Virus record (IMG/VR): IMGVR_UViG_3300031999_004721 | Span: 1-21,097 of that record | DNA: 21,097 nucleotides | Source: a virus | Strand: one strand, 5' to 3' | Translations under genes and position numbers: made by a program | The notes under the pieces: generated by a model | Databases searched by the model: none | What the model saw: the letters and a program-made list of their open reading frames with translations, nothing else | Told to the model about the DNA's origin: nothing | Shown: in pieces, positions 1,414 through 21,097 of the stretch | Numbering within the stretch: the first letter of the stretch is position 1 | Layout: every line of letters starts with the position of its first letter

Positions 1414-2093
1414 TGGCAGGTCTTCCTCAGAGTCAGACCCGTCTACCGAGCAGGTCCGAACCCAAGAAGCACTTCAAGGCTCGGTTGACGCTTTCGGGTG
1501 AATGGGAGGCATTTGTTGAACGGCGAGTGATGTATGCGCGGAGTTACACGCCGGTTCAAGCGTGGATCATGGCGATGCGGGAGTTCCCGCCGCCAACGGC
1601 TGATCCGGACGGATCGGCGGCGCGGATTGCCCGGACGGACAACGAAGCGAAGATGCTTCGGGTTCAGATGGCTCGGGACCGTCTGGAGGCGGGAGAGGCG
1701 GAACTGCCGACGGGTTCGTTGGATCGGATGCAGGTTTTTGCTCTTCTGGCGACACTCGCGGCGGAGAAGCCTGCCTGCACGATGATGGACGAGTTCGAGT
1801 GGGTGCGACGGAGCCTGTTGTTACCGGTTGATTATCTTGATCCGGAGACGATTCCGAGTGCTGCGGCGCTGGGCTGGCTCAAGAATTTGCAGGATGACGA
1901 GAAGGCGCGGTCGGATTTCTGGCGGATAGCCGGCAAGATCGTGCTCCAGACGTTGCAGACGCAGGCGGGGGTGCCGTTGGAGAGGGACCCGACCTCATCG
2001 GAAGCCGGCGGCAATGGTGAAGCTGCCACAACCGACGACGGGGTGGCGCGACTGAACGACCTGTTGGGCAACCGGGGGTCAACCAATGCGTAG
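1413..2093 (+). CDS. Probable terminase small subunit
   Basis: This 226-residue, mostly helical protein lies directly before the large terminase and overlaps it by 8 bases, the usual place for the small subunit that recognises phage DNA and recruits the packaging motor. I do not recognise a specific small-terminase family. The block FVERRVMYARSYTPVQAWIM (about residues 34-53) could form a helix-turn-helix-like unit. The tail after about residue 185 is Gly/Ser/Thr-rich and probably flexible. I prefer the ATG at 1413, because it overlaps the stop of the preceding short ORF; in-frame TTG (1407) and GTG (1410) are alternatives. No strong ribosome site precedes any of them, so coupled translation is plausible. 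The assignment rests mainly on position. Confidence 0.5.
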   Translation: MAGLPQSQTRLPSRSEPKKHFKARLTLSGEWEAFVERRVMYARSYTPVQAWIMAMREFPPPTADPDGSAARIARTDNEAKMLRVQMARDRLEAGEAELPTGSLDRMQVFALLATLAAEKPACTMMDEFEWVRRSLLLPVDYLDPETIPSAAALGWLKNLQDDEKARSDFWRIAGKIVLQTLQTQAGVPLERDPTSSEAGGNGEAATTDDGVARLNDLLGNRGSTNA

Positions 2094-3939
2094 GTGGCAA
2101 CCAAGTGGCAGTCCGGGGGCGGTCGCGGCCGTACTAGCGCGCTGGCCGCACTACGGCGTAGTGCCGAAAGATGCTACGGCCAACGCGACTTGGCGCCGCG
2201 AGATCGCGAAAGCAACAGCCAACAGTCGATCAGCGCGCGCGCGGCTGGAACGGATGTGCGCGGACGACCTGCTGTTCTGGCTCAACACGTTTTGCAACGT
2301 CTACGAGCCGCGTGCGGTGTCCGAGACCGTGTTGCCGTTCGTCACCTGGGGGTTCCAGGACGAATGTTTCACCGCACTGGATGCGGAACTGACGGCCGAG
2401 AGCGACGTGGGGATCGAGAAGTCGCGCACGATGTCGGCGACCTGGATGGTGCTGGCGTTCTACGTGTGGCTCTTCCAATTCCGACCCTATATGGCACTCG
2501 GCATTACGTCGCGGGACAAGAACTGCGTTGATCGGCGGGGCGACCCGGACAGTTTGTTCTGGAAGATCGACTTCCTGATCGACCAACAACCGGAATGGCT
2601 CCAGTCGGACGTGCGATCCATTGGGATGAACCGCGAAAACCGCCGGACGCACGGGGCCATCTCGGGCGAAGAGGCGACCCCGGACATGTTCCGGTCGGGT
2701 CGCAGACGGTCGATCTTCATGGACGAGATAGGGGCATTTCAGCTGCGAGACGGCTATGCGGCGATGAACGCGACGCAGGCCGCCACGAATGTGCGCATCG
2801 CGGCCTCGACGCCGAAGGGCGCCGTGGGTGCGTTCTACGATGCCATGCACAGTGCGGATAGCACCGCTCTGGCGATGCGTCTCCACTGGCGCGACCACCC
2901 GTTATACAATCGGGGCCTGTATACCTTCGAGAACGGGCGGCTTGTCTACCTGGACTCGGCCTGTCAGTATCAGGCCAGTTATCCCTTCGTCACTGACGGG
3001 AAGGTCCGCAGTCCCTGGTATGACCGCGAGTGCAAGCGGCTGGGCGCCAATGACACCCTGATCTCCCAGGAACTGGACATCTGTTACCTGGGTTCAGGCT
3101 CCCCCTTCTTCGGCACCGCCCTTCTGGAGCGGGTATTCCATCGGGACGTGCGCGCTCCGTTAAAAATCGGCAATATCGAGACCGTGGGAAGCGGGGTGCG
3201 GTTCGTCGAGGATTCGCGCGGGTCTCTGCGACTCTGGCTCTACCCGGACCCGAGCGGAAATCCGCCGCACGACCGGGATTACGGCATGGGAATCGACGTG
3301 TCGGAAGGGACCGGCGCCACACCGTCCGTCGTGGCAATTGTGGACCGTCGGACGGCAGCGCAGGTCGGGGAGTATGCCGATGCACACGTCACGCCGGAGC
3401 GCTTCAGCGAGAAGGTGAAGCAACTTGGCGAGTGGTTCTGCGGCCCCAGCGGTCCGGCCTATGCCAAATGGGAATCGAACGGACCCGGTCGGCCGTTTGG
3501 AATACGTTTACGGGACTTGGGTTACGGGAATTGCTTTATGCGCATGGGCGCTCGGGGCTCGCGCTACCAGGGCAACGAGATCGCCGGCTGGGCCGCGACG
3601 CAGGCCGGCGTACGCGACATCCTGACGGAACTGCGCCGGGCCTTGGAGTCGGGGGACTACACCTTGCGATCGCAATATGCCTTAGACGATTGCCGGTTGA
3701 TCGTGTACGCACCGGGCGGCATTGCGCACTTGCACGCCCTGGCGACCCGCGATCCCAGCGGGGCACGGGAGAACCATGCCGACTATGCCCGCGGCCATGC
3801 TCTGGCGTGGTCCATCGTGCGGCAGTTTCGGGACGATCCCGGCGCTGCGAAGCCTGAGGAGCCGGACATGTGCATCGCACGGCGCATGCGGATGTATGAG
3901 GACGCCCACAAGCCAACTATCGGACGACGGTGGATATAG
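2086..3939 (+). CDS. terL: Terminase large subunit (packaging ATPase and nuclease)
   Basis: At 617 residues this fits a large terminase, the motor that pumps DNA through the portal and cuts it. The ATPase domain shows a deviant Walker A, GIEKSRTMSATW at about residues 109-120, of the EKSRxMGxSW type known in terminases. The Walker B is RSIFMDEIGAF with Asp213-Glu214. An ASTPKG motif near residue 240 fits the coupling motif. The C-terminal RNase H-like nuclease shows MGIDVSEG (Asp404), KWESNG (Glu463) and HAD near 564-566, in the right order for the metal-binding acids. All catalytic blocks are present, so the gene looks intact. Its ATG lies inside the end of the preceding gene (8-base overlap), with GGGGG a few bases upstream as a weak ribosome site. 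It is followed 10 bases later by a small gene and then the portal. Confidence 0.9.
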   Translation: MRRWQPSGSPGAVAAVLARWPHYGVVPKDATANATWRREIAKATANSRSARARLERMCADDLLFWLNTFCNVYEPRAVSETVLPFVTWGFQDECFTALDAELTAESDVGIEKSRTMSATWMVLAFYVWLFQFRPYMALGITSRDKNCVDRRGDPDSLFWKIDFLIDQQPEWLQSDVRSIGMNRENRRTHGAISGEEATPDMFRSGRRRSIFMDEIGAFQLRDGYAAMNATQAATNVRIAASTPKGAVGAFYDAMHSADSTALAMRLHWRDHPLYNRGLYTFENGRLVYLDSACQYQASYPFVTDGKVRSPWYDRECKRLGANDTLISQELDICYLGSGSPFFGTALLERVFHRDVRAPLKIGNIETVGSGVRFVEDSRGSLRLWLYPDPSGNPPHDRDYGMGIDVSEGTGATPSVVAIVDRRTAAQVGEYADAHVTPERFSEKVKQLGEWFCGPSGPAYAKWESNGPGRPFGIRLRDLGYGNCFMRMGARGSRYQGNEIAGWAATQAGVRDILTELRRALESGDYTLRSQYALDDCRLIVYAPGGIAHLHALATRDPSGARENHADYARGHALAWSIVRQFRDDPGAAKPEEPDMCIARRMRMYEDAHKPTIGRRWI

Positions 3940-4265: not shown

Positions 4266-6044
4266 TTGGCGGTCCAGGAAGTCAACCCGAAGAAGGGTCT
4301 GAGCCTCGCACGGTTGCGCCGGGCGATTCGCGCCAGTCAGGAGCAACTGGCGCCGTTTCGCCAGGAGGCCAACCGGCTGTTGGAAGAGATCGCCGGACCA
4401 CGCTACGGTGCTAACTGCGCCGGCAAGCAAGCTTGCTCGTCTCAACCGTTCAACATCCTGGCGTTCGCCGCTCGGACCTACGCCCGCCAGATCGCGGCTC
4501 GCAACCCGCGAGTCAAGGTCTACGCCACGGACAAGCAGTACCGGCCGGTCGCGAACAGCCTCGAATTGGCCGTCAATCAGCGACTGCGCATCCTGGAGCT
4601 GGCCGAATCGGTACGGGCCTGCGCGTTCGACGCCCTGATCGGCGTGGGGATCACCAAGACGTACATGCGCAAGCGGCGCGGCCGGTCCGTGCTGGCCGTC
4701 GATTCCATCAGTCTGGCCGATTGGGTACACGACCCGGCCGCGACCCGCTGGGGAATGGATTCCGTCGGGTTCTGCGGCGACCGATACCGCGTCAGCCTGG
4801 AAGAGTTGCGCTCGAACCCGCGCGCCAAGCAGGACGTCGTGAAACGGCTGCGGCCAAGTCGCGGCCAGGTAATGGACAACACGAGCCCGCGACCCCAGGA
4901 GCTCACGGTCAGGACGGACGAAGAGGGAATCAACGACGACGTGGAGGTCTGGGACATCTTTCTGCCCCGGTTGCGTTTGATTCTGTGCCTGCCGGACCAG
5001 GATTTGGAAGCGCCGCTCATGGTGCTGCCCTATGATGGCCACCCGGAACAGGGACCGTACCATCTACTACGCTTCTTCCCCCTGTCCGACAACATTATGC
5101 CGGTCTGCCCATTGTCGCCATTGCTGGAGTTGCACACGGCAGTCAACGAGCTGCTGCAAAAGACGATCCGGCAATCCCGCCGACAGCGCGACCTGCTGGT
5201 CTGTGAGCAGGGCAGCGCCACGGACGCGGAACGCATCGTCAACTCGGTGGATGCCGACGTGTTGCCACTCCAGAACCCCGGCGGAGTGGGTGAGAAGCGG
5301 ATCGGCGGACCGGACCAGGCGACCCTCTTCACCTTGCTCCAGTGCATGCAGTTGTTCAACAAGCTGGGCGGCAACATTGATGTGCTGGCGGGCCTGGGCA
5401 GCGGAGCGCCGACGCTGGGGCAGGACCAGTTGATGGCGACCAGTGCCAGCCAGATGGTCGCCGACATGGCTGAATCGGTCAGTCGGCTGGCCCGCCACGT
5501 AGTCGAGGACATTGCATACGACATCTTCACCGACCGCACGTTGAAGGAAATGGCGAGTCAGACCTTCGGACCCTTGAAGATCGACGATTTGCGCATCACC
5601 AATGAAAGTTTCCGGGGTGAGTTCTTTCAGTACGCGTTCGACGTCGAGCCGTACTCGATGCAGCATCAGACGCCGGCCCAGCAATTCGCCGCCCTGATGA
5701 CGGTCTTCAACAACTTCGTCGCCCCCTATGCCCAGGTGCTGCAAGCGCAGGGCGGCGCGATCGACTTCCGGGCACTGTTGAAGCGCCTCGCCGACCTGAC
5801 GGGGTTGCGCGATCTGGACGAGATCGTGCGGTTCGCCGAGTTGCCGACGGACACGATGCAGCAAAACGCCGGACCAGCGCCGCGGCCAGGTATTTCGCCA
5901 GCCGGCAACAACGGCAATGCCCCACAGGCGCCAGCGAGTGGTGGCGGCACGGCCGGCATGAACGATGTGATGTCGCGGTTGCTGGCAGGCGGCAACGTCC
6001 AGGACGGCGAGCGGCGGCGATTGATCCCGAGCGGAGTTGGATAG
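4266..6044 (+). CDS. Portal protein
   Basis: At 592 residues directly after the terminase, this is the size and place expected for the portal, the ring at the capsid vertex through which DNA enters and to which the tail attaches. The N-terminal 45 residues are a charged helix, followed by FNILAFAARTYARQIAARNP (about 62-81). This LAFAxRTYxRQIxxxNPRV pattern recurs in portals of environmental phages as I know them. A long alpha/beta stem follows, and then a helical region around 340-420 that fits the wing/crown. The last 70 residues are Gly/Pro/Asn-rich and disordered. It starts at TTG, supported by AAGGA eight bases upstream; the nearby ATG at 4258 is out of frame. The stop is four bases before the next ATG. 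Confidence 0.82.
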   Translation: MAVQEVNPKKGLSLARLRRAIRASQEQLAPFRQEANRLLEEIAGPRYGANCAGKQACSSQPFNILAFAARTYARQIAARNPRVKVYATDKQYRPVANSLELAVNQRLRILELAESVRACAFDALIGVGITKTYMRKRRGRSVLAVDSISLADWVHDPAATRWGMDSVGFCGDRYRVSLEELRSNPRAKQDVVKRLRPSRGQVMDNTSPRPQELTVRTDEEGINDDVEVWDIFLPRLRLILCLPDQDLEAPLMVLPYDGHPEQGPYHLLRFFPLSDNIMPVCPLSPLLELHTAVNELLQKTIRQSRRQRDLLVCEQGSATDAERIVNSVDADVLPLQNPGGVGEKRIGGPDQATLFTLLQCMQLFNKLGGNIDVLAGLGSGAPTLGQDQLMATSASQMVADMAESVSRLARHVVEDIAYDIFTDRTLKEMASQTFGPLKIDDLRITNESFRGEFFQYAFDVEPYSMQHQTPAQQFAALMTVFNNFVAPYAQVLQAQGGAIDFRALLKRLADLTGLRDLDEIVRFAELPTDTMQQNAGPAPRPGISPAGNNGNAPQAPASGGGTAGMNDVMSRLLAGGNVQDGERRRLIPSGVG

Positions 6045-7462: not shown

Positions 7463-8560
7463 ATGGCACTACAAGCTGACCAAATCGCCGATCTCGTACA
7501 GGCCGCACGGCCGACCGAGATTCGCGACAAGTGGGTTGATGCCAGCCAGAAGAAGCAGAAGTATCACGCTCTGCCGCGTCTGCTGGTACAGAACCGCACG
7601 AAATTGAGTGGCGGGTTAGGCCCCCGATTGCGGGTGCGCGTCAAATCGACCGCGACCGCGAAGTTCACCGGCCTCTACGCCTCCGACACGACCAACGTCA
7701 CCGACGTGTTCCAGTACATCCAGATGGGTTGGCGACACGCGACTAACAACTGGTCCTACGAGGAGCGCGAGCCCGAGATCAACAGCGGCCCGGACGCAAT
7801 CTTCAATCTCGTCCAGGCCCGCGAAGCGACCGCGATGCTCGATCTGACGGACCTGATCGAGAATGCGTTTTTCACCACCATCCCGACCGCGACCGACACG
7901 GACCAACTGCACGGCATCTTCTATTGGCTTGTGCCGTACAGCAGCGCCGCCGCTACTCCGACGAACCCCGGCGCCGACGATTTCTACGGCCTGGACCCCT
8001 ATGCCAAGAATGCCGCCGAAATTACCGGCGGTGCCGGCGGACTCAGCAGCGACACGTATCCCTACTGGGCCAACTGGGCCGGCAAATACACGGACGTGAC
8101 GGCCGATGACGCTATCAGGCTGATGCGTAATGCGGCCGACTACACCGACTTCGAGGCTCCGGTGCCGGTGCCGCAGTACGATCGTATCGAGGACGACTGG
8201 GGCCTCTACACGGTACATTCAGCCCTCGCAAGCATGCAAACCCTGGCCCGACAACAGAATGAAAGCATCGGGTTCGACATCGGCAGCAAGGCAGTGACAT
8301 TCAACAACCGGCCCATCGAATGGGTCCGGGCCTTGGAAGCCGTCAGTGGTGCCCCGATCATCGGACTGAACTGGTCCACGTTCGAGGTCCATCACCTGAG
8401 CGATCCGTTCGTCAAAAAGACGCCGCCGCTGCGCAACAAGGAATCGCACAACGTGTGGAACTGTTTTGTGGATATGTCGATGGACACGTTGTGCTGCAAC
8501 CGGCGGCGCAACTGGATTCTCACCACGACCGACGTGGCCAGCATCACGTACAGCGTGTAG
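7463..8560 (+). CDS. Major capsid protein (HK97-type fold expected)
   Basis: At 365 residues directly after the scaffold candidate, this fits the major head protein. The pattern W-R-H-A-T-N-N-W-S-Y-E-E-R-E-P-E-I-N near residues 89-106 resembles a block I know from capsid proteins of environmental phages (W...YxxxExxIN). It is followed by two helices around QAREATAMLDLTDLIENAFF, which would form the spine helix of the fold. The C-terminal half has the mixed beta pattern expected of the A domain (WVRALEAVSGAPIIGLNW). No N-terminal cleavage site is obvious. The ATG has AGGAG nine bases upstream. It is followed by a lectin-like virion gene, a common neighbour of capsid genes. Confidence 0.75.
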   Translation: MALQADQIADLVQAARPTEIRDKWVDASQKKQKYHALPRLLVQNRTKLSGGLGPRLRVRVKSTATAKFTGLYASDTTNVTDVFQYIQMGWRHATNNWSYEEREPEINSGPDAIFNLVQAREATAMLDLTDLIENAFFTTIPTATDTDQLHGIFYWLVPYSSAAATPTNPGADDFYGLDPYAKNAAEITGGAGGLSSDTYPYWANWAGKYTDVTADDAIRLMRNAADYTDFEAPVPVPQYDRIEDDWGLYTVHSALASMQTLARQQNESIGFDIGSKAVTFNNRPIEWVRALEAVSGAPIIGLNWSTFEVHHLSDPFVKKTPPLRNKESHNVWNCFVDMSMDTLCCNRRRNWILTTTDVASITYSV

Positions 8561-9426: not shown

Positions 9427-10425
9427 ATGTCTGAATCGACCCTGACACTCACCTATGAGGACTTCCACAAAGAGTGTGCCTTCACCTGTGGTTGGCCTCG
9501 GGTGGATAGCCAGAATGCCGGCGGCCTCCTGACCGCCGCACAATTGGAACGGGTCGACTTCTGCGTCCGGGACGGATACCGGCGTTTCCTGATGTGCGAT
9601 AGCGACGCGCCGGGCGCGGGGCTCCACATATGGAGTTTCCTGCGCCCGGCGGCGACGTTCACTACATCCAAACCGAATACGGTGAAGACTCTAACGTGGA
9701 GCCCCACAACCAAGATTACTACCCTTGTGGCCAATGCGAGTTGTTTTGGACCGTCCGTGCTTAACGGCACCGTCCGTTTCTCTACGACGACCAATGAGTA
9801 TCCGGTTGTCGTCTATACCAGTGACACGACCGTCGGATTCAGTGGCAACCTCGTTGCTCTGGGAGAGGCTGGCGCATTCACGGTTCCAAACGTCGGCCTG
9901 CCCGACGATTTCGGATCACTGGAATGGCCGATCACGTTCGCATTGGGGACCGGGCATGCACACATCGACGACACGGGCGAGTCACAGATAAGGATGTTGC
10001 GCCAACAGAATACCGCGCTGACACCGGGACGTCCGCGACAGGCGGCAGTACGTGCGCTCAGGTCGGACGGCACCGGCGGGCAACGCTGGCAGTTGATGCT
10101 GCACCCGATTCCGGATGCCATGTATCCACTCGGCTACCGGTACAACGTGCTGGCCGAGAAGTTGACCCACACGGCCCTGTATGCCCTCGGCGGCATGTTC
10201 CATACACAGACGATTCTGGAAGGGTGCCTGGCCGCCGTCGAATTGCACATTCACCGTCTGCCGGGCATCCACGCGGCGCGGTTCCAGGAACTCCTGGCCC
10301 GCAGCATCGCCCACGACCGCAACTTGGCGATGCCGGGCACGCTCGGCAATCTGGACGATCCCACGGATCGGGCGGCGCCGCGGCGCCGCACCGGTGTGAC
10401 GACCTACAACGGCGTCGCCTACTAA
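9427..10425 (+). CDS. Probable head-to-tail adaptor / connector
   Basis: This 332-residue protein comes after the head genes. The N-terminus (TYEDFHKEC..., LTAAQLERVDFCVRDGYRRF, IWSFLRP, residues 9-70) and C-terminus (MYPLGYRYNVLAEKLTHT, GCLAAVELHIHR, FQELLARSIAHDR, residues 220-300) are helical. They resemble the two halves of podovirus adaptors such as T7 gp11 and P22 gp4, which form a ring under the portal. Between them lies a beta-rich insert (about 75-165) ending VGLPDDFGSLEWP, which I have seen in related environmental-phage proteins. The assignment is by pattern and order, not close similarity. AGGCGGA precedes the ATG. A head-completion or tail-terminator role is possible. Confidence 0.5.
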   Translation: MSESTLTLTYEDFHKECAFTCGWPRVDSQNAGGLLTAAQLERVDFCVRDGYRRFLMCDSDAPGAGLHIWSFLRPAATFTTSKPNTVKTLTWSPTTKITTLVANASCFGPSVLNGTVRFSTTTNEYPVVVYTSDTTVGFSGNLVALGEAGAFTVPNVGLPDDFGSLEWPITFALGTGHAHIDDTGESQIRMLRQQNTALTPGRPRQAAVRALRSDGTGGQRWQLMLHPIPDAMYPLGYRYNVLAEKLTHTALYALGGMFHTQTILEGCLAAVELHIHRLPGIHAARFQELLARSIAHDRNLAMPGTLGNLDDPTDRAAPRRRTGVTTYNGVAY

Positions 10426-10811: not shown

Positions 10812-11135
10812 ATGCCACTCTTCTCCGGTCCGGCGATGATCCCTAGCAATGAGAGTGCTATCCTGTTAGGTGCCACCGCCGTGGACATCACGTTCGCCAA
10901 GCGCCCGCTCAAGTTGATTGTGCAGGTCTGGGTTGGCGGTCCGATCTACGTGCGCCTCAACGCAACGGGAGCAAGTCCGATAGTCGGCAACGTAATCAAG
11001 GTGACGACGACTACACCGTTGATGGTGGAGGATGTTGCACTGACCAGCGCTGTGCCCCTGTCGATCTATAATGGCAGTGGTGTAGCCTTTATCTGGAACG
11101 GAGCAAACCAAAGTGGGTGCATCCTGGCCTGGTGA
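10812..11135 (+). CDS. Small virion protein, first copy of a tandem pair
   Basis: This 107-residue, beta-rich protein is about 65% identical over its last 99 residues to the next gene product. The shared core includes RPLKL, YVRLNATGASP, VALTSAV, FIWNG and the identical end GCILAW. The conserved closing WNG...GCILAW suggests a domain packed at its C-terminus. AAGGA lies eight bases before the ATG. Its body begins at the internal MIP near residue 9, which aligns to residue 28 of the second copy. Function is unknown; location and strand-rich sequence suggest a small tail or fibre-base component. The pair is part of a DNA duplication described separately. Confidence 0.6.
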   Translation: MPLFSGPAMIPSNESAILLGATAVDITFAKRPLKLIVQVWVGGPIYVRLNATGASPIVGNVIKVTTTTPLMVEDVALTSAVPLSIYNGSGVAFIWNGANQSGCILAW

Positions 11136-11174
11136 CGAACAAGATTAGAGGGCACAGATGATACCACCCAACAA
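10818..11174 (+). repeat. Tandem duplication, unit 1
   Basis: This stretch matches 11221-11577 at an offset of 403-406 bases. Nearly identical blocks include 10951-10980 (29 of 30 bases match 11357-11386), 11034-11053 (matches 11440-11459) and 11115-11136 (matches 11521-11542). Similarity continues past the stop into the intergenic spacer and the first codons of the next gene, so the duplicated unit spans a gene, a spacer and a gene start. Confidence 0.75.
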
Positions 11175-11541
11175 ATTAGGACGTAAAGGTGGAAAGTCGG
11201 GTGCAGGGGGTCATTACCAGTTCTTCTCCCGTGAGCCGATGATCCCCGCCAATTTGATTGCCGTCCTAGCGCCCGGCGGCGCCGTGGACATCGCGTTCTA
11301 CTCGCGCCCTCTCAAACTGCTTGTGGAACTCTGGCTTGCCAGTCCGACCCTCTATGTGCGCCTCAACGCAACGGGAGCGAGTCCGACGGCGGGCGATATA
11401 ATCAAGGTGACAGTGGACATGCCGTTGGTGGTGGAGAATGTTGCACTGACCAGCGCTGTAGCCCTGTCGATATGGAACGCTGGCAGCGGAGACTTCATCT
11501 GGAACGGAACGGGGCAAAATGGGTGCATCCTGGCCTGGTGA
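11158..11541 (+). CDS. Small virion protein, second copy with a different N-terminus
   Basis: This 127-residue paralog of the preceding gene is about 65% identical from residue 28 on (65 of 100 aligned positions by hand count). Its first 27 residues are unlike the first copy and are rich in Gly and Lys (LGRKGGKSGAGG). The first six codons, ATGATACCACCCAAC..., resemble the start of the gene at 11564 (MIPP versus MIPL), as expected if the duplication copied that start and fused it to this body. AGAGGG lies five bases before the ATG; an internal ATG at 11239 has no good ribosome site. Divergence of the copies suggests they have distinct roles, perhaps as heteromeric subunits. Confidence 0.6.
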   Translation: MIPPNKLGRKGGKSGAGGHYQFFSREPMIPANLIAVLAPGGAVDIAFYSRPLKLLVELWLASPTLYVRLNATGASPTAGDIIKVTVDMPLVVENVALTSAVALSIWNAGSGDFIWNGTGQNGCILAW

Positions 11542-12844: not shown

Positions 12845-13027
12845 ATGATGGTAACGCCGCAAATCTTACAGGAACAAATCGCACTATTGGAACAGAAGGA
12901 AGCCGAGTTTTTGGCGCTGGCGAATCAGGCGCACGGCGCCATACAGGCGCTGCGCGACGTGATTGCCCGGATAGCCGAACCGAACCCGGAGGAAGATGGC
13001 CCGCACCTTGCAAAGTCCGGCGACTAG
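12845..13027 (+). CDS. Small coiled-coil protein
   Basis: This 60-residue protein is almost wholly helical. Heptad-like spacing of Leu/Ile/Ala runs from about residue 5 to 45 (ILQEQIALLEQKEAEFLALA), and an acidic, Pro-rich tail follows. AAGGAG lies eight bases before the ATG; a second ATG follows immediately. It overlaps the next gene by 32 bases in another frame, so the end of this gene carries the ribosome site of the nozzle candidate. Short coiled-coil proteins at this place may act as assembly partners or chaperones for the large tail protein; that is inference. Confidence 0.55.
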   Translation: MMVTPQILQEQIALLEQKEAEFLALANQAHGAIQALRDVIARIAEPNPEEDGPHLAKSGD

Positions 13028-15518
13028 GACGGTCGAGGTCCAGTTCCCGCTCGCGGGACTGGACCGCGGCGCCTCCTTCCAGTCCCAACCGCCCTACACG
13101 ACGCCTGATGCACTCAACGTCGTACCGGCCGGGGCGCCCGAGATGCGCCGCCGCGGCGGCCCACGACCGGGATTCATCCTCGACGAACACAACCTGCTGC
13201 ACCAACCCAACAGTTACGGTGCCTTGTACCCTGTCCAGTGCATCGGGCTCTTGCCGCGCTACGGCCTTTGGCAATCGCTGTGGGATGAATTCGAGGACCC
13301 TTTCACCGGCAAGGCCATTGGCCGCGGCTGGGTTGGCGGCTATTACACGGAACCACCGGCGACGCGCTTTGTGGAAGGATTCGTGGAGGCGCGCAATGGA
13401 GAACACTACGGGTCGGTTACGCTGGCCCTGGCCGATTATGACGAAGACGAGTCGCATTCTGTATCCATCTGGGTTTATCCGTACAAGGGGGCCTATGGTG
13501 GGTCGGTGTGCCTGTACCTCACGGTGAACTGTACAACCAAGAATTACCGTGACAACGGCGTCGAGTTCGAGTTGGACTTGTCGGTGCCGACAAAGTACCG
13601 GTTCTGGATTCGCAGATATGTCAACGGTGCCGTTGATTCGTTCCATGATTCAGGTCAACAAAACCTGAGCAGCCTTGATCCGGGCTATACGGCCCCATGC
13701 CCGCGCGAATTCCGGGTCGATCTAATCCGCCGTTCTAGCGGAATAGGCGATACGTTCGAGTGTTTCTGGCGTCGCAACACCCTCTATAACGAAATGGAGG
13801 TCACGCCGATCGGCGGTGATCCACTCTATCGTATGGTCGGCTATTCAATCCACGGCACGAGCGCGGATACGACAGCCCGTGTGCGCGTGCGACGCTTCCG
13901 ACATCGGGGCAAATGTCCGACCAATCCCGCGATCACCCCATTGGCCACGACCCACGTCTACTTTGTGCAGCTTGGATACCTGTATACCGAACACCCTGAC
14001 GGGCGCCTCGGTCCCTACCCGGTCGATACGGCCATCCAGTTCCTCAGCGACCGGCGTCTGGCCAGTGTGACGATCGGCAACTGCGCGATCTTGGCGGCCG
14101 GCGACGGTTTGCAGATCGCGAACTTCGCGGACGGGCACGGCACATCAGTGGGTGGGTGCGGATACAAAATCGCGACGAACAACCCAGAGGTAATGCAGGC
14201 CGACAAGAACATTCATGTGATCTCCATCACGAGCGCCGGAGAGAATCCGGCTGGCACCTATGGCATCGACCATGTGACTTTCGAGGAAGGTCGCTATCAA
14301 GTCTATGTCCTGTGCAGTTATAAGTACACCGCGGACTGCATCTGTGCCTACATCACGCGCGCCGACATGAGGTACATTCCGGACGGGGATACTCCCCGCC
14401 TATGCCCATTCGTCCCCTTGCCCGAGTTCGACGCCAGCGGAGTGACGGTGGGCAACCGCGGCCTCCTGCCAACAGGTTGCCGTCTCATTTGCCACTATGC
14501 CGGTCGTCTGGTCCACGGCCGCAGTATGGAACGACCTCACGGCTGGTGGATGTCGCGGGTCGGCTCTCCGTGGGACCATCTCCCAAGTATCGACATTCAA
14601 GACCAGGACCAACCTCGCGGCGGCACGACAGGCCAGGCAGGCATTCCGCCACAACCGCTGATGGCGCTAGTGCCGTGGACCAACGATTATCTCTTGATGG
14701 CCACTCAAACTGCCATCCTGCGCCTGTCGGGCGATCCGGGTTATGGCGGCCGGTTCGATGTCGTGTCACGGACGACGGGCATCATCGGGATGTCGGCTTG
14801 GTGTCACTTGCCGGACGGCACACTCGTCTTCCTGGCCAGGGACGGTCTCTACTCGCTTAACCCCGGCGCCATTGGAATTCCGCAGCCGATGTCGCCCAAC
14901 AAACTGCCGGATGAACTCCAGGATTGTGCCGCCTTCGGCGACGACGTGGTACTGGCTTACGAGTACACGCGCCGCGCCATCCTGATCGGGGTGACGCCTA
15001 TTATGGCCACACGGCGCAACAGTTGGTGGTTCGATCTGGACACGCTGAGCTTCTGGCCGGTCGAGTTTCAGGCGGACCACATTCCGACCGCCGTCGGCAA
15101 TGACGAGCGCGGCAACCTGTTGATCGGGTGCCGCGACGGAAAGTTGCGGCGCTTCGATCAGCGCAGTGAAGTAGACGATGCGGGTGTTGCGATCACGAAT
15201 TACGTGGTCATCGGTCCTTTACGGGCGGGGTTCAATCTGGCCGGCATCCTGGTCGAGATGACTGCCGTCACATCCGCCAGTGGGGGTCCGGTCGCGTGGC
15301 AACTCTATACCGGCGATACGGCGGAAGAGGCATTGGCCTCAACCGCGATTGGCTCGGGCACCTGGTCGCGCTCGGGTCTCCAGTACACGGACTGGCCCCA
15401 GATGCGTTTTGGTTCTTTCTATCTGAAGCTCTCGCCCGGCACCGTTGGACGGCGCTGGGCCTTCGAGTCGGCTGCGCTGCGGATGAATGCGGCCGGCATA
15501 TTGCGCGTACTCGCGTAA
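12996..15518 (+). CDS. Large tail protein, probable nozzle (T7 gp12-like)
   Basis: At 840 residues this is close to the size of the T7 nozzle gp12 (794). The N-terminus reads PLAGLDRG (18-25), QPPYTTPDALNV (31-42) and RRRGGPRPGF (51-60). This parallels the gp12 opening, in which GG, QP, an N-V/N-G block and K/R-RPP come in the same order. The middle and C-terminal parts hold repeated four-strand blocks typical of a beta-propeller: LLMATQTAILRLSGDP (about 565-580), DGTLVFLARDGLYSLNPG (about 607-624), WWFDLDTLSFWPVEF (about 676-690) and GNLLIGCRDGKLRRFD (about 705-720). A nozzle would close the short tail and pass DNA. The ATG is near GGAGGA, only about three bases away, which is short. A different propeller-type tail protein is the alternative. 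Confidence 0.55.
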   Translation: MARTLQSPATRTVEVQFPLAGLDRGASFQSQPPYTTPDALNVVPAGAPEMRRRGGPRPGFILDEHNLLHQPNSYGALYPVQCIGLLPRYGLWQSLWDEFEDPFTGKAIGRGWVGGYYTEPPATRFVEGFVEARNGEHYGSVTLALADYDEDESHSVSIWVYPYKGAYGGSVCLYLTVNCTTKNYRDNGVEFELDLSVPTKYRFWIRRYVNGAVDSFHDSGQQNLSSLDPGYTAPCPREFRVDLIRRSSGIGDTFECFWRRNTLYNEMEVTPIGGDPLYRMVGYSIHGTSADTTARVRVRRFRHRGKCPTNPAITPLATTHVYFVQLGYLYTEHPDGRLGPYPVDTAIQFLSDRRLASVTIGNCAILAAGDGLQIANFADGHGTSVGGCGYKIATNNPEVMQADKNIHVISITSAGENPAGTYGIDHVTFEEGRYQVYVLCSYKYTADCICAYITRADMRYIPDGDTPRLCPFVPLPEFDASGVTVGNRGLLPTGCRLICHYAGRLVHGRSMERPHGWWMSRVGSPWDHLPSIDIQDQDQPRGGTTGQAGIPPQPLMALVPWTNDYLLMATQTAILRLSGDPGYGGRFDVVSRTTGIIGMSAWCHLPDGTLVFLARDGLYSLNPGAIGIPQPMSPNKLPDELQDCAAFGDDVVLAYEYTRRAILIGVTPIMATRRNSWWFDLDTLSFWPVEFQADHIPTAVGNDERGNLLIGCRDGKLRRFDQRSEVDDAGVAITNYVVIGPLRAGFNLAGILVEMTAVTSASGGPVAWQLYTGDTAEEALASTAIGSGTWSRSGLQYTDWPQMRFGSFYLKLSPGTVGRRWAFESAALRMNAAGILRVLA

Positions 15519-15530
15519 AAGGAAGTTCTC

Positions 15531-15923
15531 ATGGCGATTACCTATTCAGCGACAGTTTGTAAGGTACTATGCGATGCAGCGGTAGACCAGTGCGATGTCG
15601 GCGGCATCGGGTATGTTGAAATCCAAAGTGCGGCTAGTGCTGTACTGGTCACCCTGCCGTTTGCGGCGACTGCGTTTGGGGGGGCCACGGCTGCGGCCCC
15701 TAGTATAGCGACAGCGGCCGCTATTGCCCCGGCGGCTGCCTCGGGTGGCGGCGCCGGCACCGCGGCGACAAAATTTACCGTAAACAACAACGCTGCCACG
15801 CTTTTGTGGACCGGCGAGGCAGGCGCTGCCGGTAGCGGCAAGGAAATGATCTTGGACAACGTGAATATCGCGACCGGCCAGGTAGTCACGATCAGTTCCT
15901 TCACCCACACCCAGCCGGCGTAA
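15531..15923 (+). CDS. Ala/Gly-rich beta virion protein
   Basis: This 130-residue protein has three Cys near the start (CKVLCDAAVDQC). Next comes a strand with YVEIQSAASAVLVTLPF and a low-complexity Ala/Gly stretch at about 44-80 (GGATAAAPSIATAAAIAP), and the end is a beta region (ATLLWTGEAG, DNVNIATGQVVTISSF). No family is recognised. The alternation of flexible Ala-rich and beta parts is common in small phage fibre or decoration proteins. AAAGGAAG lies seven bases before the ATG. There is no signal peptide. Confidence 0.5.
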   Translation: MAITYSATVCKVLCDAAVDQCDVGGIGYVEIQSAASAVLVTLPFAATAFGGATAAAPSIATAAAIAPAAASGGGAGTAATKFTVNNNAATLLWTGEAGAAGSGKEMILDNVNIATGQVVTISSFTHTQPA

Positions 15924-16204: not shown

Positions 16205-17284
16205 ATGGCGTACAACTGGTCGCGAGTGCCGGGCGTGTGGAATGTGGCCATCTCAAACGTAGGAACCCTTACCACGTTTGACCTGGACAGTGCATTCGTG
16301 CATGGTACAAGTGGGGATGCCTGGCTATGCCGCTTCATTTCGCCCGTTTCTCAGACCGACGCGGCCCTCAACCTGTACGTCTGGGTGAACGCGGTGACAG
16401 GCAGCCCGACCGACGTTCGCTTGGGCGTCTATCGGGGCGCTCAGGCCGGGCAAGACCCGCAGCGTCCCGAGACGGCGGGCGGGTCTTCGCCGCTTGCGGA
16501 ATCCGCCGCTACCGACCTGTCGGCGATGGCCGGACATTGGGCCACCTTTACCATTGCCAGCGTGTCGCTGACTCGCGGGTTCACGTATTTCCTGATTCTG
16601 GATAATCGGACAACTACGCCCGCCAGTCATTTCCCAGCGATTGCGGTGCGTGGCAAATGGAACGGGGCTTCCGGCGCCGAGGGTTGCGGCTTTGAAATGG
16701 TCGGCTCCTCGACGAACGGGATTACTACCGATCCCACCCTGCTTGTGTATCCCGGCCCGGCCGTCATCGCATTTGGCGACGGCACCCTACTCGGTAATCC
16801 CTATGTCGGTGATGTGACTCACGCGAGTAATGCAAACGACCGCGGCATACGGTATCGGTTTGCTGAGGATGTCCTTGTCAGTGGATTTGCGTTGAACGGG
16901 GTCAGCGCGGCGGCCGCTACAGCCGAACTTAACGCAACGGTTGGTGGTGCCAATGTAGCAACGCAGGCCCTTGACCTGAGTGCTGCCAACGGGGTTGCAA
17001 TGGCCAGCCGTTGGACTCCGACAACTCTTACTGCTGGAATCTCGTATGATGCCGTTATGACGTTTAGCGGTAACACGAGCTCAGGAGGTATTATCAATAT
17101 GGGCGAGGCTGCGCCGCCCACGGATGTGCAAGCCTGCCGACCACAAGGCGCACTAGGTTATGTGGATGGTGCTACGCCGGGATCATACACGTTTGATCCG
17201 TTATCTTTGATGCTGGGCGTCCTGGTGGTTGATGATGTTCCTGTGAGTCCTGACTATCCGGAAGCGCAAATGGTAGGAGTCTGA
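16205..17284 (+). CDS. Two-domain beta-sandwich protein, probable fibre or decoration
   Basis: This 359-residue protein is built of two similar halves. The first (about 1-165) has RFISPVSQTDAALNLYVWVN, then WATFTIASVSLTRGFTYFLI. The second (about 190-330) has RYRFAEDVLVSGFALNGV, then ASRWTPTTLTAGISYDAVMT. Both follow the same order: a strand containing F.SP or FAED, an L/V-rich strand, then a W-T/P...L-x-x-G-x-x-Y edge. This resembles duplicated jelly-roll carbohydrate-binding domains, though no binding residues can be named. No signal peptide is seen. It lies among other fibre-like genes, so host or surface attachment is a reasonable inference. Confidence 0.5.
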   Translation: MAYNWSRVPGVWNVAISNVGTLTTFDLDSAFVHGTSGDAWLCRFISPVSQTDAALNLYVWVNAVTGSPTDVRLGVYRGAQAGQDPQRPETAGGSSPLAESAATDLSAMAGHWATFTIASVSLTRGFTYFLILDNRTTTPASHFPAIAVRGKWNGASGAEGCGFEMVGSSTNGITTDPTLLVYPGPAVIAFGDGTLLGNPYVGDVTHASNANDRGIRYRFAEDVLVSGFALNGVSAAAATAELNATVGGANVATQALDLSAANGVAMASRWTPTTLTAGISYDAVMTFSGNTSSGGIINMGEAAPPTDVQACRPQGALGYVDGATPGSYTFDPLSLMLGVLVVDDVPVSPDYPEAQMVGV

Positions 17285-17285
17285 T

Positions 17286-17849
17286 ATGGCGTTTTTCAAG
17301 AACCGGGCTGGCCAGAAGATACCCGTGTTTGCTGTCGATTCAACCGGATCACCCAAGACGGGGGACGCCGCAAATATCAGCGCGCAGATCAGTCTGGATT
17401 GCGCGGCGACGGCGGCAACGGATGATGCGGCCCCAAGCGAACTTGATGCGACCGATGCCCCTGGCGTGTATTACTTCAACATGCTGACCGCCGAGACTAA
17501 CGCGGACCTCATCATTCTGTTCGCCAAGAGCAGCACGTCCGGCGTTGTACTACGCCCAGTGTTCATCTATACCGAGGGGGCGGAGGTTCTATTTGGCAGC
17601 GTCAACGACGTGGCGCCGGCCGTCGGTGATTTCGATCTGAGTACCGAGTTCGCGGCGACCGCCGACCTCTACAACGGCATGGTTATGGTGTTCATCTCGG
17701 GTGCGTTGGTCGGGCAGAATCGCAAGATCAGCGACTATAGCGTTGGGCGGAATGCGGTATTCAGCGGCGCGGCGGGCGAGGTCGATGCGCCTTGGCCGGC
17801 TGCCCCTGCGAACGCCGACAAGATCATGCTGATCGGACGGATCGGGTAA
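17286..17849 (+). CDS. Ig-like/beta-sandwich virion protein
   Basis: This 187-residue protein has an N-terminal module of the form VFAVDSTGSPKTGDAANISA (about 14-33), then LDATDAPGVYYFNMLTAETN (about 53-72), then a closing strand VLRPVFIYTEG. The TGDAANI...DATxAPGxYxFxLTxAETNAD pattern is one I recognise from environmental phage tail or fibre proteins. A second beta segment follows (ADLYNGMVMVFISGALVGQN). It parallels the gene at 11564 in layout. AGGAG lies six bases before the ATG. The stop TAA is directly joined to the next ATG (TAAATG). Function beyond virion structure cannot be stated. Confidence 0.55.
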   Translation: MAFFKNRAGQKIPVFAVDSTGSPKTGDAANISAQISLDCAATAATDDAAPSELDATDAPGVYYFNMLTAETNADLIILFAKSSTSGVVLRPVFIYTEGAEVLFGSVNDVAPAVGDFDLSTEFAATADLYNGMVMVFISGALVGQNRKISDYSVGRNAVFSGAAGEVDAPWPAAPANADKIMLIGRIG

Positions 17850-18959
17850 ATGGGCCTGCACCGCTACTTCTGGTTCCTGACAACCGTACCGGCGGGCGGA
17901 CCGGCGCCGATTACGGCCACGGTGGCCGAGAGCGGGTCCAAGGCAACCGAAGCCGCGATTGGAACTGTTGCGATTGTCAGCGCGGTTGCCGAGACCAGTT
18001 CCAAACCTATCGAGGCCCTTACCGGCACCTGCGCCGTTGTGGCGACGGTCGCTGATGCTGGGAGCAAGGGCACCGAAGCTATTGCAGGCACGGTCGCTAT
18101 AGCAGTCGCCGTCACCGAGACCGGTTCTAAGGCTACGGAGGCTGCGGTCGGCGCTCTTGCCGTTGCCGGAACCGTGGCCGAGAGCGGGCTCAAGGCTACC
18201 GAGGCGGCAACCGCAGCAATATCCGTGGCTGTAATTGCCGCAGAAACGGGTTCAAAAGGCACTGAGTCGATCGTTGGAACGGTTGCCATTGCCGCGACGA
18301 TTGCTGAAACAGGCAGTGAACCGACTGAGGCTATCGAGGTAACGGTTGTGCCAGCTGGCGCAATCGTCGCCGAAACTGGATCTAAACCGACCGAAGCCGT
18401 CACCGGTACGGTTGCTATTGCTGGAAGTGTTACGGAAGTTGGGGCGAAATCAACCGACGCAGTAACAGTCACCAAGGCTTTGTTGCCGACATTTAGGTCA
18501 CCATCCGGTCCCGCAATATCCGCCGCGACGCTTCCCGGCGCCGGGATGATCCGGGTGAGTTATACGAGCCTACCCGAACTCGCTCGTGCGGTCCAAGAAC
18601 TGGCATTTCGCCTCAATGACGCGATTACTGCGGCCGCGGCTGCAAGCGCCGTTCCGCCCACCGATCCACTTCCCTACCTGACCTACGCCGACGGCAATAC
18701 CGTTACACTTGAGGCTGGCGATCCGTTACTCCTCGGCGCGCAACCGACCGATACCGAATATCTGGGCGACGCCCAGGGGGCGCCCCTGCTACTAGCAGAC
18801 TGCCGACCCATGCGACTTGGCGCTAGCGGCGTCGCGCAGGCCGAGGCAACCCGTATAAATGAACTGATCCGATCCGGTCTGATGCAGTGGTTGCCGCCCG
18901 AAGCGCGGCGCGTTACCAGCGAAACCGTCGATCAGTACAAGAACGTACCGGAGTCCTGA
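17850..18959 (+). CDS. Fibre-like protein with nine 21-residue repeats
   Basis: This 369-residue protein has three parts. Residues 1-24 include an aromatic/hydrophobic stretch (HRYFWFLTTVPAGG). From residue 25 to about 212, nine tandem units of 21 residues (one of 22) follow the pattern VAETGSKxTEAxxGTVAIAAT. The third part, 220 onward, contains a helix LARAVQELAFRLNDAI, a beta hairpin-rich part (VTLEAGDPLLLG, PLLLADCRPMRLG) and a final helix. The repeat alternates a polar loop with a hydrophobic strand, which would suit an elongated beta solenoid or fibre shaft; no structure is known to me. Its weak ribosome site and TAAATG junction suggest coupling to the gene before. Function is inferred only from position and shape. 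Confidence 0.6.
   Translation: MGLHRYFWFLTTVPAGGPAPITATVAESGSKATEAAIGTVAIVSAVAETSSKPIEALTGTCAVVATVADAGSKGTEAIAGTVAIAVAVTETGSKATEAAVGALAVAGTVAESGLKATEAATAAISVAVIAAETGSKGTESIVGTVAIAATIAETGSEPTEAIEVTVVPAGAIVAETGSKPTEAVTGTVAIAGSVTEVGAKSTDAVTVTKALLPTFRSPSGPAISAATLPGAGMIRVSYTSLPELARAVQELAFRLNDAITAAAAASAVPPTDPLPYLTYADGNTVTLEAGDPLLLGAQPTDTEYLGDAQGAPLLLADCRPMRLGASGVAQAEATRINELIRSGLMQWLPPEARRVTSETVDQYKNVPES
17922..18485 (+). repeat. Nine in-frame 63-bp tandem repeats
   Basis: Units begin at 17922, 17985, 18048, 18111, 18174, 18237, 18300, 18366 and 18429. Eight are 63 bp or, for the last, slightly shorter; the seventh is 66 bp. Conserved positions are V/I-A/T-E/D, S/T-G-S-K, T-E-A and G-T-V-A. The DNA copies differ at many third-codon positions, so the array is old or under selection at the protein level, not a recent expansion. 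Confidence 0.8.
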
Positions 18960-18960
18960 T

Positions 18961-19944
18961 ATGCGCACAATGGATGATCTGGCGGCTGCCACATATCTGT
19001 ATCAGGACGACCTGGTTCACCTGTTGCGGACGCACGAGACCGCCACGGTCGATCAGGACAAGAAGATGAACGCCGCCGTGTTAGGTGCATCCCTCGGTTG
19101 GGTGCGCCTCTATACGACCGACTACACCGCTCAACCGGCGAATTACAGTTACGCGGCCACTGCCTTCACAGTCGTTCCGACCTGGGTCGCCGATACCGTG
19201 ACGACCCTCAATTCGTTTGTTCGTCCCACCGCCGCTAATGGATTCTTCTATCAGTGCGTGGCGCGCACCGGCACTTTCAAGACCGATGCGGCGACGGAAC
19301 CAACATGGTCCACGACCCTGGGATTCGACACCATTGATGACGAGATCACCTGGCGCTGTCGAGGTTTGAACGTCATCGCAACGCCAACCGACCTAAGTTC
19401 CATCTTCTTACCCGGCGTGCCGTTGAAGTACGTGTACAACAGTGTCACCTACTACGGCATGGTCCTGTACGCTAGCGCAGATTACGTGGGGCTCGTCGGT
19501 GCGCCACTCAGCAGCAGTTACGCCCTGACAGCACTCTACTACGCACCCCTACGAGGCGCCGTCACGGTCGAGTTGCACAAAGTCGGCGACTACGATGCCG
19601 GCGCAGCGGCAGTGGTGACGGACAATGAGGTCATCTGGCTGGGCCAGGCGGCCAGTCTTGTGACCTTTGCGGTGAAACACCGCACGAATGCGACGGGGGC
19701 CGGGACGAACCCTTACGTCAACCCAACGGTCGGCGGGTCTGTCGTCTCGACGAACGGCGATGGCGCCAGTGCCGACAGGGGCATTCAGGTCTCGACGAGT
19801 TGGCAGGAGAACAGTGCCGTCGCGATCAAGACGGCGAATTACCATGTGGATCGGGGAGATGCGATTGGCGTGTCGATCACTGTAACCGGGAGCAATCCCG
19901 ATGCCGCGGGCCTGTCGGTCTGCGCCATATTGGTATTGGAGTAA
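18961..19944 (+). CDS. Fibre-like protein with a possible carbohydrate-binding module
   Basis: This 327-residue protein begins with a helical N-terminus (about 1-45). A compact module follows at about 76-135: VADTVTTLNSFVRPTAANGF, FYQCV, TEPTWSTTLGFDTIDDEI and TWRC. The order of TLNSFVRP, NGFFYxC, EPTWxTTxG and ITWxC resembles small phage modules related to CBM5/12-type carbohydrate binding, with clustered Trp, Tyr and Phe. The C-terminal 130 residues are a beta sandwich (VTVELHKVGDYDAG, FAVKHRTNATG, DRGDAIGVSITVTG). GGAG precedes the ATG by about eight bases, within the previous gene's end. Recognition of host surface sugar is plausible but not shown. Confidence 0.5.
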   Translation: MRTMDDLAAATYLYQDDLVHLLRTHETATVDQDKKMNAAVLGASLGWVRLYTTDYTAQPANYSYAATAFTVVPTWVADTVTTLNSFVRPTAANGFFYQCVARTGTFKTDAATEPTWSTTLGFDTIDDEITWRCRGLNVIATPTDLSSIFLPGVPLKYVYNSVTYYGMVLYASADYVGLVGAPLSSSYALTALYYAPLRGAVTVELHKVGDYDAGAAAVVTDNEVIWLGQAASLVTFAVKHRTNATGAGTNPYVNPTVGGSVVSTNGDGASADRGIQVSTSWQENSAVAIKTANYHVDRGDAIGVSITVTGSNPDAAGLSVCAILVLE

Positions 19945-19972: not shown

Positions 19973-21097
19973 ATGGGACTTCCCGGAGGCGATTTTCTCA
20001 CCAATCCGCGTTCGATCCTGCAATGGCTCCAAATCCCGACAGAGCTGGCGGGTGTTGGATTGAATAACCAAACCGCGACCGAACAGGAGGCTGCGCGGAC
20101 CGCCGGACTTGCCGACATTTTCAGTCAGTGGGGTGATTTCGGTGGCGCCCTCCTGAACTTTATGAACGAGAACACTGCGGCCGGTTTGAACTTCATGGGT
20201 ACTACGACGACTGCGACCGAGCAAAACCTAGCCGGCATCACGAACTTCCTCTTGACGGGCGAGATGCCGACGATCCAGAGTGGGATCACACCAGGGTCAC
20301 TGAGTCGGTTGATCTCGGCCGCGATACCGGGAGACGAGACTGCCGCGACTGCCGCGACTGCCGCGACTGAGACACCGGCCAACACCGCAGTCGATTTCGG
20401 CGGTGCGACTACCAGCCGTGAGGCCCTGCGCAATCTGACGCCCGAAGAGGCGAAACAGGTCAGCTTCGACCTCAACTGGCTGCCCCCTGACGTGCGTGCG
20501 ACGGCTTGGCAGACCAATCAATTTGAGTGGGGCGGACTCGGCCGGAACGAACGAACGGCCGCGCAGTTCAACCGGTGGGCCGAACACGTTCCTGAGACTT
20601 ACATGGACGAAGCAATCCGGACGATATACGGGACGACGCCGGAGGAACAAGGCCAAGCGGGTATCAATACCACAATCGCCGGCAGAGGAGGCGACACTCC
20701 GAAGGCGCACGACTGGAACGTCACGACATCGGGCGGTGTCCAAAACTATGTCGTCAATCCGGACGGCACCGTGCGTCCAGCGACAGTTCCCGGCGGGGCG
20801 AAAGGACTGGTCACGGTATCAGGTGAGGACGTGCCGTTCGCCCAATTGACCTTGGCGGCCGGCGGCGCTTGGAATCCTGGCAAAACGGCCGAGGAGAATC
20901 TGGCTGCGGCACTCGGCATCCCGGTTCAGGGTACTCAACCGGCCACGACCGACACTGGCACGCGCGACCTGTGGCTCCAGGGTTATCAGGGTCGATTTGA
21001 GGCCGGCATGGCGGAACTTGAAAAGCTTGGCGGCACTGGCCACACCAACATCGACACCGCCTACGACAGCGCGATCGGCAACAGTCTGGCCGATTTG
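19973..21097 (+). CDS. Start of a long virion protein, cut by the window edge
   Basis: An uninterrupted frame of 375 codons runs to the last base, without a stop. I chose ATG 19973 because AGGAGG (19960-19965) lies seven bases before it; an in-frame ATG at 19949 has GGAG seven bases upstream and would add eight residues. The N-terminus is helical, then come a low-complexity TAATAATAAT (from a 9-bp tandem repeat) and Trp-rich middle segments (FDLNWLPPDVRATAWQTNQF). At the visible end is GRFEAGMAELEKLGGTGHTN followed by IDTAYDSAIGNSLADL. That end resembles a helical phage virion block I remember (GMAELEGLGxQxxxDI). It may be an internal virion or DNA-ejection protein; tail fibre or lysis roles cannot be excluded. 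Confidence 0.6.
   Translation, partial: MGLPGGDFLTNPRSILQWLQIPTELAGVGLNNQTATEQEAARTAGLADIFSQWGDFGGALLNFMNENTAAGLNFMGTTTTATEQNLAGITNFLLTGEMPTIQSGITPGSLSRLISAAIPGDETAATAATAATETPANTAVDFGGATTSREALRNLTPEEAKQVSFDLNWLPPDVRATAWQTNQFEWGGLGRNERTAAQFNRWAEHVPETYMDEAIRTIYGTTPEEQGQAGINTTIAGRGGDTPKAHDWNVTTSGGVQNYVVNPDGTVRPATVPGGAKGLVTVSGEDVPFAQLTLAAGGAWNPGKTAEENLAAALGIPVQGTQPATTDTGTRDLWLQGYQGRFEAGMAELEKLGGTGHTNIDTAYDSAIGNSLADL
20341..20367 (+). repeat. Three 9-bp tandem repeats
   Basis: TGCCGCGAC is repeated three times without change and encodes alternating Thr-Ala-Ala triplets within the last open frame. The unit is a multiple of three, so expansion or loss would not shift the frame. It is likely a flexible linker. 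Confidence 0.7.

Follow-up and report, generated by a model that had tools for sequence, protein, structure and literature searches.

What does a protein in which a 21-residue unit occurs nine times contribute to a phage, and do these copies build a fibre shaft or some other structure? The question is raised by the repeat gene (P0001) of an uncultured virus. The window, which is the whole stretch of 21,097 bp analysed here, is a complete IMG/VR record that is classed as linear. The open frame of P0001 fits exactly into the gap left by the preceding stop (17849) and the following start (18961), and all neighbouring genes lie on the same strand (Table 1). The reading favoured here, with a probability of about one half, is that P0001 is a minor virion protein from the tail-fibre or tail-tip region of a podovirus-like phage, and that its nine units are the rungs of a parallel beta-solenoid serving as a rigid spacer.

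Table 1. Positions of the repeat gene, its parts, and the genes that place it in the window.
Feature	Position	Strand	Length	Evidence or remark
Large terminase (TerL)	2086-3939	+		phrog_5989, E 5.6e-12
Portal-like protein	4266-6044	+		phrog_332, E 0.0056; conserved in syntenic phages
Podovirus-type major capsid protein (MCP)	7463-8560	+		NF033394, E 9.7e-27
Gene 9427-10425	9427-10425	+		Conserved in syntenic uncultured phages
840-aa gene	12996-15518	+	840 aa	Followed by a series of smaller genes, then the repeat gene
Upstream neighbour	17286-17849	+	187 aa	C-terminal 84 aa are a widespread phage domain
Repeat-protein gene (P0001)	17850-18959	+	369 aa	Open frame
N-terminal leader, MGLHRYFWFLTTVPAGGPAP	17850-17909	+		One predicted strand (AF2, residues 3-13)
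Array	17910-18479	+	nine units	Autocorrelation and shuffles, pS/pN, AF2, VIA-align
Units 1-3	17910-17972, 17973-18035, 18036-18098	+	21 aa each
Units 4-6	18099-18161, 18162-18224, 18225-18287	+	21 aa each
Units 7-9	18288-18350, 18351-18416, 18417-18479	+	21 aa; unit 8, 22 aa
Post-array linker and helical segment, GMIRVSYTSLPELARAVQELAFRLNDAITAAAA	18480-18722	+		AF2 helix; similarity to L105 11622-11975
C-terminal segment	18723-18956	+		Fold not recognised; pLDDT 27-47
Downstream neighbour	18961-19944	+	327 aa	Residues 74-132 like phrog_20658 (head decoration), E 9.9e-05

The initial annotation had called the repeat gene a virion gene, and its surroundings agree with this placement. The gene sits in a structural module with the genes for MCP, TerL, and the portal-like protein and the conserved gene 9427-10425 upstream. 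Given this position, the repeat protein is presumably present in particles. The domain that ends the upstream neighbour (YNGM..F..GAL.GQNR.ISDY) has a relative in 67 viral loci; it is 52% identical over 84 aa to L105 12359-13264. Two copies of it occur in a 715-aa protein (L117 1681-3828), which also carries an Ala/Ile/Asp-rich array with a period of about 30 residues. Elsewhere in the window, 10812-11135 and 11158-11541 encode adjacent paralogous small proteins that are 60% identical over 106 aa, and the latter weakly matches the head protein family phrog_240 (E 0.005).

The array spans residues 21-210, and unit 8 alone has an extra residue. Its autocorrelation peaks at 21, 42, and 63 residues only. 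At the 21-residue lag, identity is 43% and the BLOSUM62 score is 1.87 per position; the repetition is far above chance, as the highest score among 2000 shuffles is 0.58. The nine-fold, 21-residue repeat described initially is thereby borne out, and the limits first given for it, 17922-18485, were accurate to within a few codons. The motif ETGSKxTEA that was proposed to mark each copy is exact in two of the nine, and the other copies carry variants of it. Pairs of units share 33-67% protein identity, and their consensus is approximately IAATVAETGSKATEAVTGTVA. This consensus is strongest at Glu7, Gly9, Lys11, Thr13, Glu14, and Ala15, together with hydrophobic residues at positions 1, 5, 16, and 20. 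Ala and Thr account for 25% and 16% of the array, respectively, and SEG masks about a third of it.

The repetition is a property of the protein and not of the DNA, because TRF detects no DNA-level tandem repeat in the array and identical residues use identical codons about as often (0.327) as predicted from the array's own codon usage (0.314). Between units, synonymous sites are saturated (pS 0.76) and pN is 0.32, which argues for selection on the motif. Taken with the codon matches, these values show that the units were duplicated long ago and that their likeness has been maintained by selection. Judged from its sequence, the array carries no sign of recent strain-to-strain slippage. Its GC3 is low (0.55 versus 0.74 expected). 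This was considered as a sign of foreign origin and dropped, since part of gene 16205-17284 is equally low; the C-terminal half of that gene has a GC3 of 0.52 versus about 0.73 in the module. The low-GC3 stretches in this gene and in the array possibly mark a mosaic fibre region.

Structure was predicted with AlphaFold2 (AF2) from a single sequence only, for the full-length protein and then for residues 1-211. The full-length model has an overall pLDDT of 48; the array stands at about 60 and the part beyond it at less than 50. The shorter model is a regular beta array with a pLDDT of 66.6, a pTM of 0.62, and no stretch below 50. Both runs place one strand of about 14 residues in each 21-residue unit, whereas parallel stacking appears only in the pLDDT-67 single-sequence model of residues 1-211. 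When this model was compared with known structures by VIA-align, the top match was the SufB-SufD parallel beta-helix (Z 11.9, 158 residues, 3.3 Å), followed by the SMS complex (Z 9.2), 4dn7 (Z 8.7), and then CsgA (Z 6.5), FHA, and SRRP; for repeats, a Z below about 13 may reflect merely a common arrangement. Foldseek returned no significant match for the array model in the PDB, and the rows that it listed, FapC among them, are largely parallel beta-solenoids that are individually not significant. The array is thus predicted, with moderate confidence and no family assignment, to be a parallel beta-solenoid, although AF2 may render many V/T/A/G-rich repeats as solenoids. The solenoid guess of the initial annotation gains modest support from the ordered model and from the parallel beta-helices nearest to it in VIA-align. 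Its proposal that the C-terminal domain is a tip fares worse. That segment is predicted at a pLDDT of about 27-47 and has no match in Pfam or PHROG, and the part common with G002, the closest relative that is informative here, is not a terminal knob but the helical segment that follows the array, where AF2 places a low-confidence helix (residues 241-266).

Three other explanations of the array were weighed. Doubtful, but the best placed of them, is a homotrimeric fibre shaft of intertwined chains of the triple beta-spiral or beta-helix type, in which the helical segment would trimerise and the C-terminus would form the tip; the native state would then differ from the monomer model. Known triple beta folds are built of short-strand units, whereas the array has a 21-residue unit with one long strand. 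Triple beta-spiral, triple beta-helix, and beta-bracelet shafts are trimeric or pentameric with unit lengths other than 21 residues, and the beta-bracelet combines strands of 5 residues with loops of 3, versus the roughly 14-residue strands of the array. The ordered solenoid is also predicted for the monomer alone, and the supposed tip has no confident prediction. The trimer draws its support from the order of the parts, with the helical segment after the array, from the fibre-like proteins with shaft repeats that fill the corresponding stretch in related phages, and from the viral fibres, in which beta-structured trimers are common and short repeated beta units form a thin shaft (PMC7565637, PMC8869412).

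A flexible Ala/Thr/Gly-rich linker that owes its register to an old duplication and has no defined fold is an unlikely account of the array. An exact 21-residue period across nine copies is unusual for linkers, AF2 yields strands rather than coil, and Glu7, Gly9, Lys11, Thr13, Glu14, and the four hydrophobic positions are retained despite the saturated synonymous sites. The Ala/Thr-rich, low-complexity composition, with its SEG-masked third, is nonetheless compatible with a linker, as is an array pLDDT of just 60-70. A meander of antiparallel strands, a barrel, or an amyloid-like sheet, with each unit giving one long strand and the strands alternating in direction, such as a self-associating surface or adhesive element, would suit the 14-residue strands and 7-residue polar loops and the appearance of CsgA and FapC among the structural matches, but it is very unlikely, as the best matches are parallel beta-helices and the CsgA and FapC amyloids are themselves solenoid-like.

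The likeness of the array to SufB and SufD, whose core domain is a parallel beta-helix (PMC5571166), is one of predicted shape only. In its predicted backbone arrangement, the array model matches SufB and SufD (PDB 5awg and 5awf), with 8% sequence identity in the structural alignment. SufB and SufD differ in being scaffolds for Fe-S assembly that carry helical domains at their flanks. Neither Pfam nor NCBIfam gave a match that would place the array in this family, and its profile matched no PDB sequence at E up to 10. The best viral structural match by Foldseek is A0A6J5KYR2 (BFVD) from an uncultured Caudovirales phage, with a probability of 1.00, a TM of 0.51, 20% identity, and an E of 0.0077, which lies above the 0.001 significance line. 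This protein is uncharacterised.

Beyond the window, searches recovered no second copy of the array, and the suggestion of the initial annotation that copy number differs between strains and tunes fibre length finds no support. P0001 matches no family of Pfam, PHROGs, or NCBIfam, bar one chance-level row, and searches of these collections gave neither a second array nor a described phage fibre family similar to it. The array profile (A1) found no array in genome contigs, and none was found in viral contigs with P0001 and A1. Among 39 other viral records, A1 likewise detected no array, with the window as positive control. A tblastn search of phage and plasmid records was also negative; BLAST masking affects no more than about one third of its length, which makes the tblastn negatives meaningful, not absolute. 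The search for related loci relies on short exact peptide matches, so that diverged arrays could be missed. Several candidates were set aside. A DNA pattern for ETGSKxTEA gave six matches in viral contigs, each a single motif without an array. Repeats with periods in multiples of 7 (L124, L125, L128, L140, and L151) are Ala/Ser/Asn-rich arrays of different sequence. Designed armadillo repeats (PDB sequence, best E 0.03) are helical and probably match through shared period and composition. A literature search on 21-residue or solenoid repeats in phages found nothing.

Syntenic uncultured phages were identified through terminase alignment. These podovirus relatives are distant, with TerL at most 38% identical, and the array is absent from those found. 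Among the phages that span the matching region, the closest is G002 (TerL 37%), in which the probable counterpart of the repeat protein is a 117-aa protein without an array (L105 11622-11975). Its gene lies downstream of a gene with the 84-aa domain of 17286-17849 and of a homologue of 15531-15923, directly before the gene for a 382-aa protein. In this protein, the segment MVRASQASLVELRKAIQ can be aligned to MIRVSYTSLPELARAVQ, which closely follows the array of the window. BLASTP gives 47% identity over 19 aa (E 0.001). The Smith-Waterman score is 56; one of 2000 shuffles scored this high, and the pair ranked first among 1897 ORFs. The 117-aa protein is read as a probable homologue of the helical segment, although the shared stretch is short, at some 20-40 residues, and the array would be the difference between the two proteins. 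The leader is loosely like MRSRAFFFFVHDG of the same protein by eye, but a computed comparison did not rank this likeness. A phrog_6188 match of the 117-aa protein was rejected as non-specific, as this family also matches in 13 of 14 control genomes. L002, found through the domain of the downstream gene, was rejected as a relative, its capsid protein having no similarity to that of the window. The initial annotation had named two outcomes that would speak against it, disorder in the predictions and relatives lacking any repeat; the one recognisable relative does lack the repeat, whereas the prediction is ordered at moderate confidence.

In three other phages (G010, G006, and G004), the matching genome stretch encodes long, repeat-bearing, fibre-like proteins, with best repeat periods of 99 (L107 867-3884), 103 (L108 530-2941), and 45 residues (L111 612-5762). 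Like the repeat gene, those of G010 and G004 lie downstream of a homologue of the 840-aa protein gene and contain internal repeats, but these repeats are different and longer, with no sequence similarity to the array. The G010 protein (1005 aa) matches the tail fibre family phrog_31660 (E 4.3e-27), and this match in the equivalent stretch was counted in favour of a fibre-region protein. The similar repeat proteins of G010 and G006 measure 1005 and 803 aa, and repeat number may vary there.

In the favoured reading of P0001 as a solenoid spacer, the nine-rung block would be placed between the short N-terminal strand and the helical segment, which may serve in oligomerisation. The nine rungs are probably stacked as a parallel beta-solenoid to form a rod. 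In beta-helices, the usual rise is about 4.8 Å per rung, and nine stacked rungs with this rise would form a rod of about 4-5 nm. Such a rod may act as a rigid spacer that keeps the N-terminal strand and the helical segment apart; adhesion is a second, subordinate possibility. A further, tentative idea is that the array represents an orphan family of beta-solenoids with 21-residue rungs, acquired or expanded in a small helical virion protein of a single lineage of uncultured podovirus-like phages as a rod appendage that relatives lack. The array is an orphan in sequence, and stacked-strand rods are already a known structural kind. If the solenoid is real, the gene and the 117-aa protein of G002 would together illustrate in compact form how a virion protein gains a modular rod. 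The strict period of the unit and its saturated silent sites could make it a clean natural starting point for the design of beta-solenoids. By itself, the array resolves no open question. Short repetition of another kind occurs in the last gene of the window, which follows the downstream neighbour and is cut by the contig end: at 20338-20369, a perfect 9-base DNA tandem repeat (GACTGCCGC x3.6) encodes a short peptide repeat of the TAA type (Thr-Ala-Ala).
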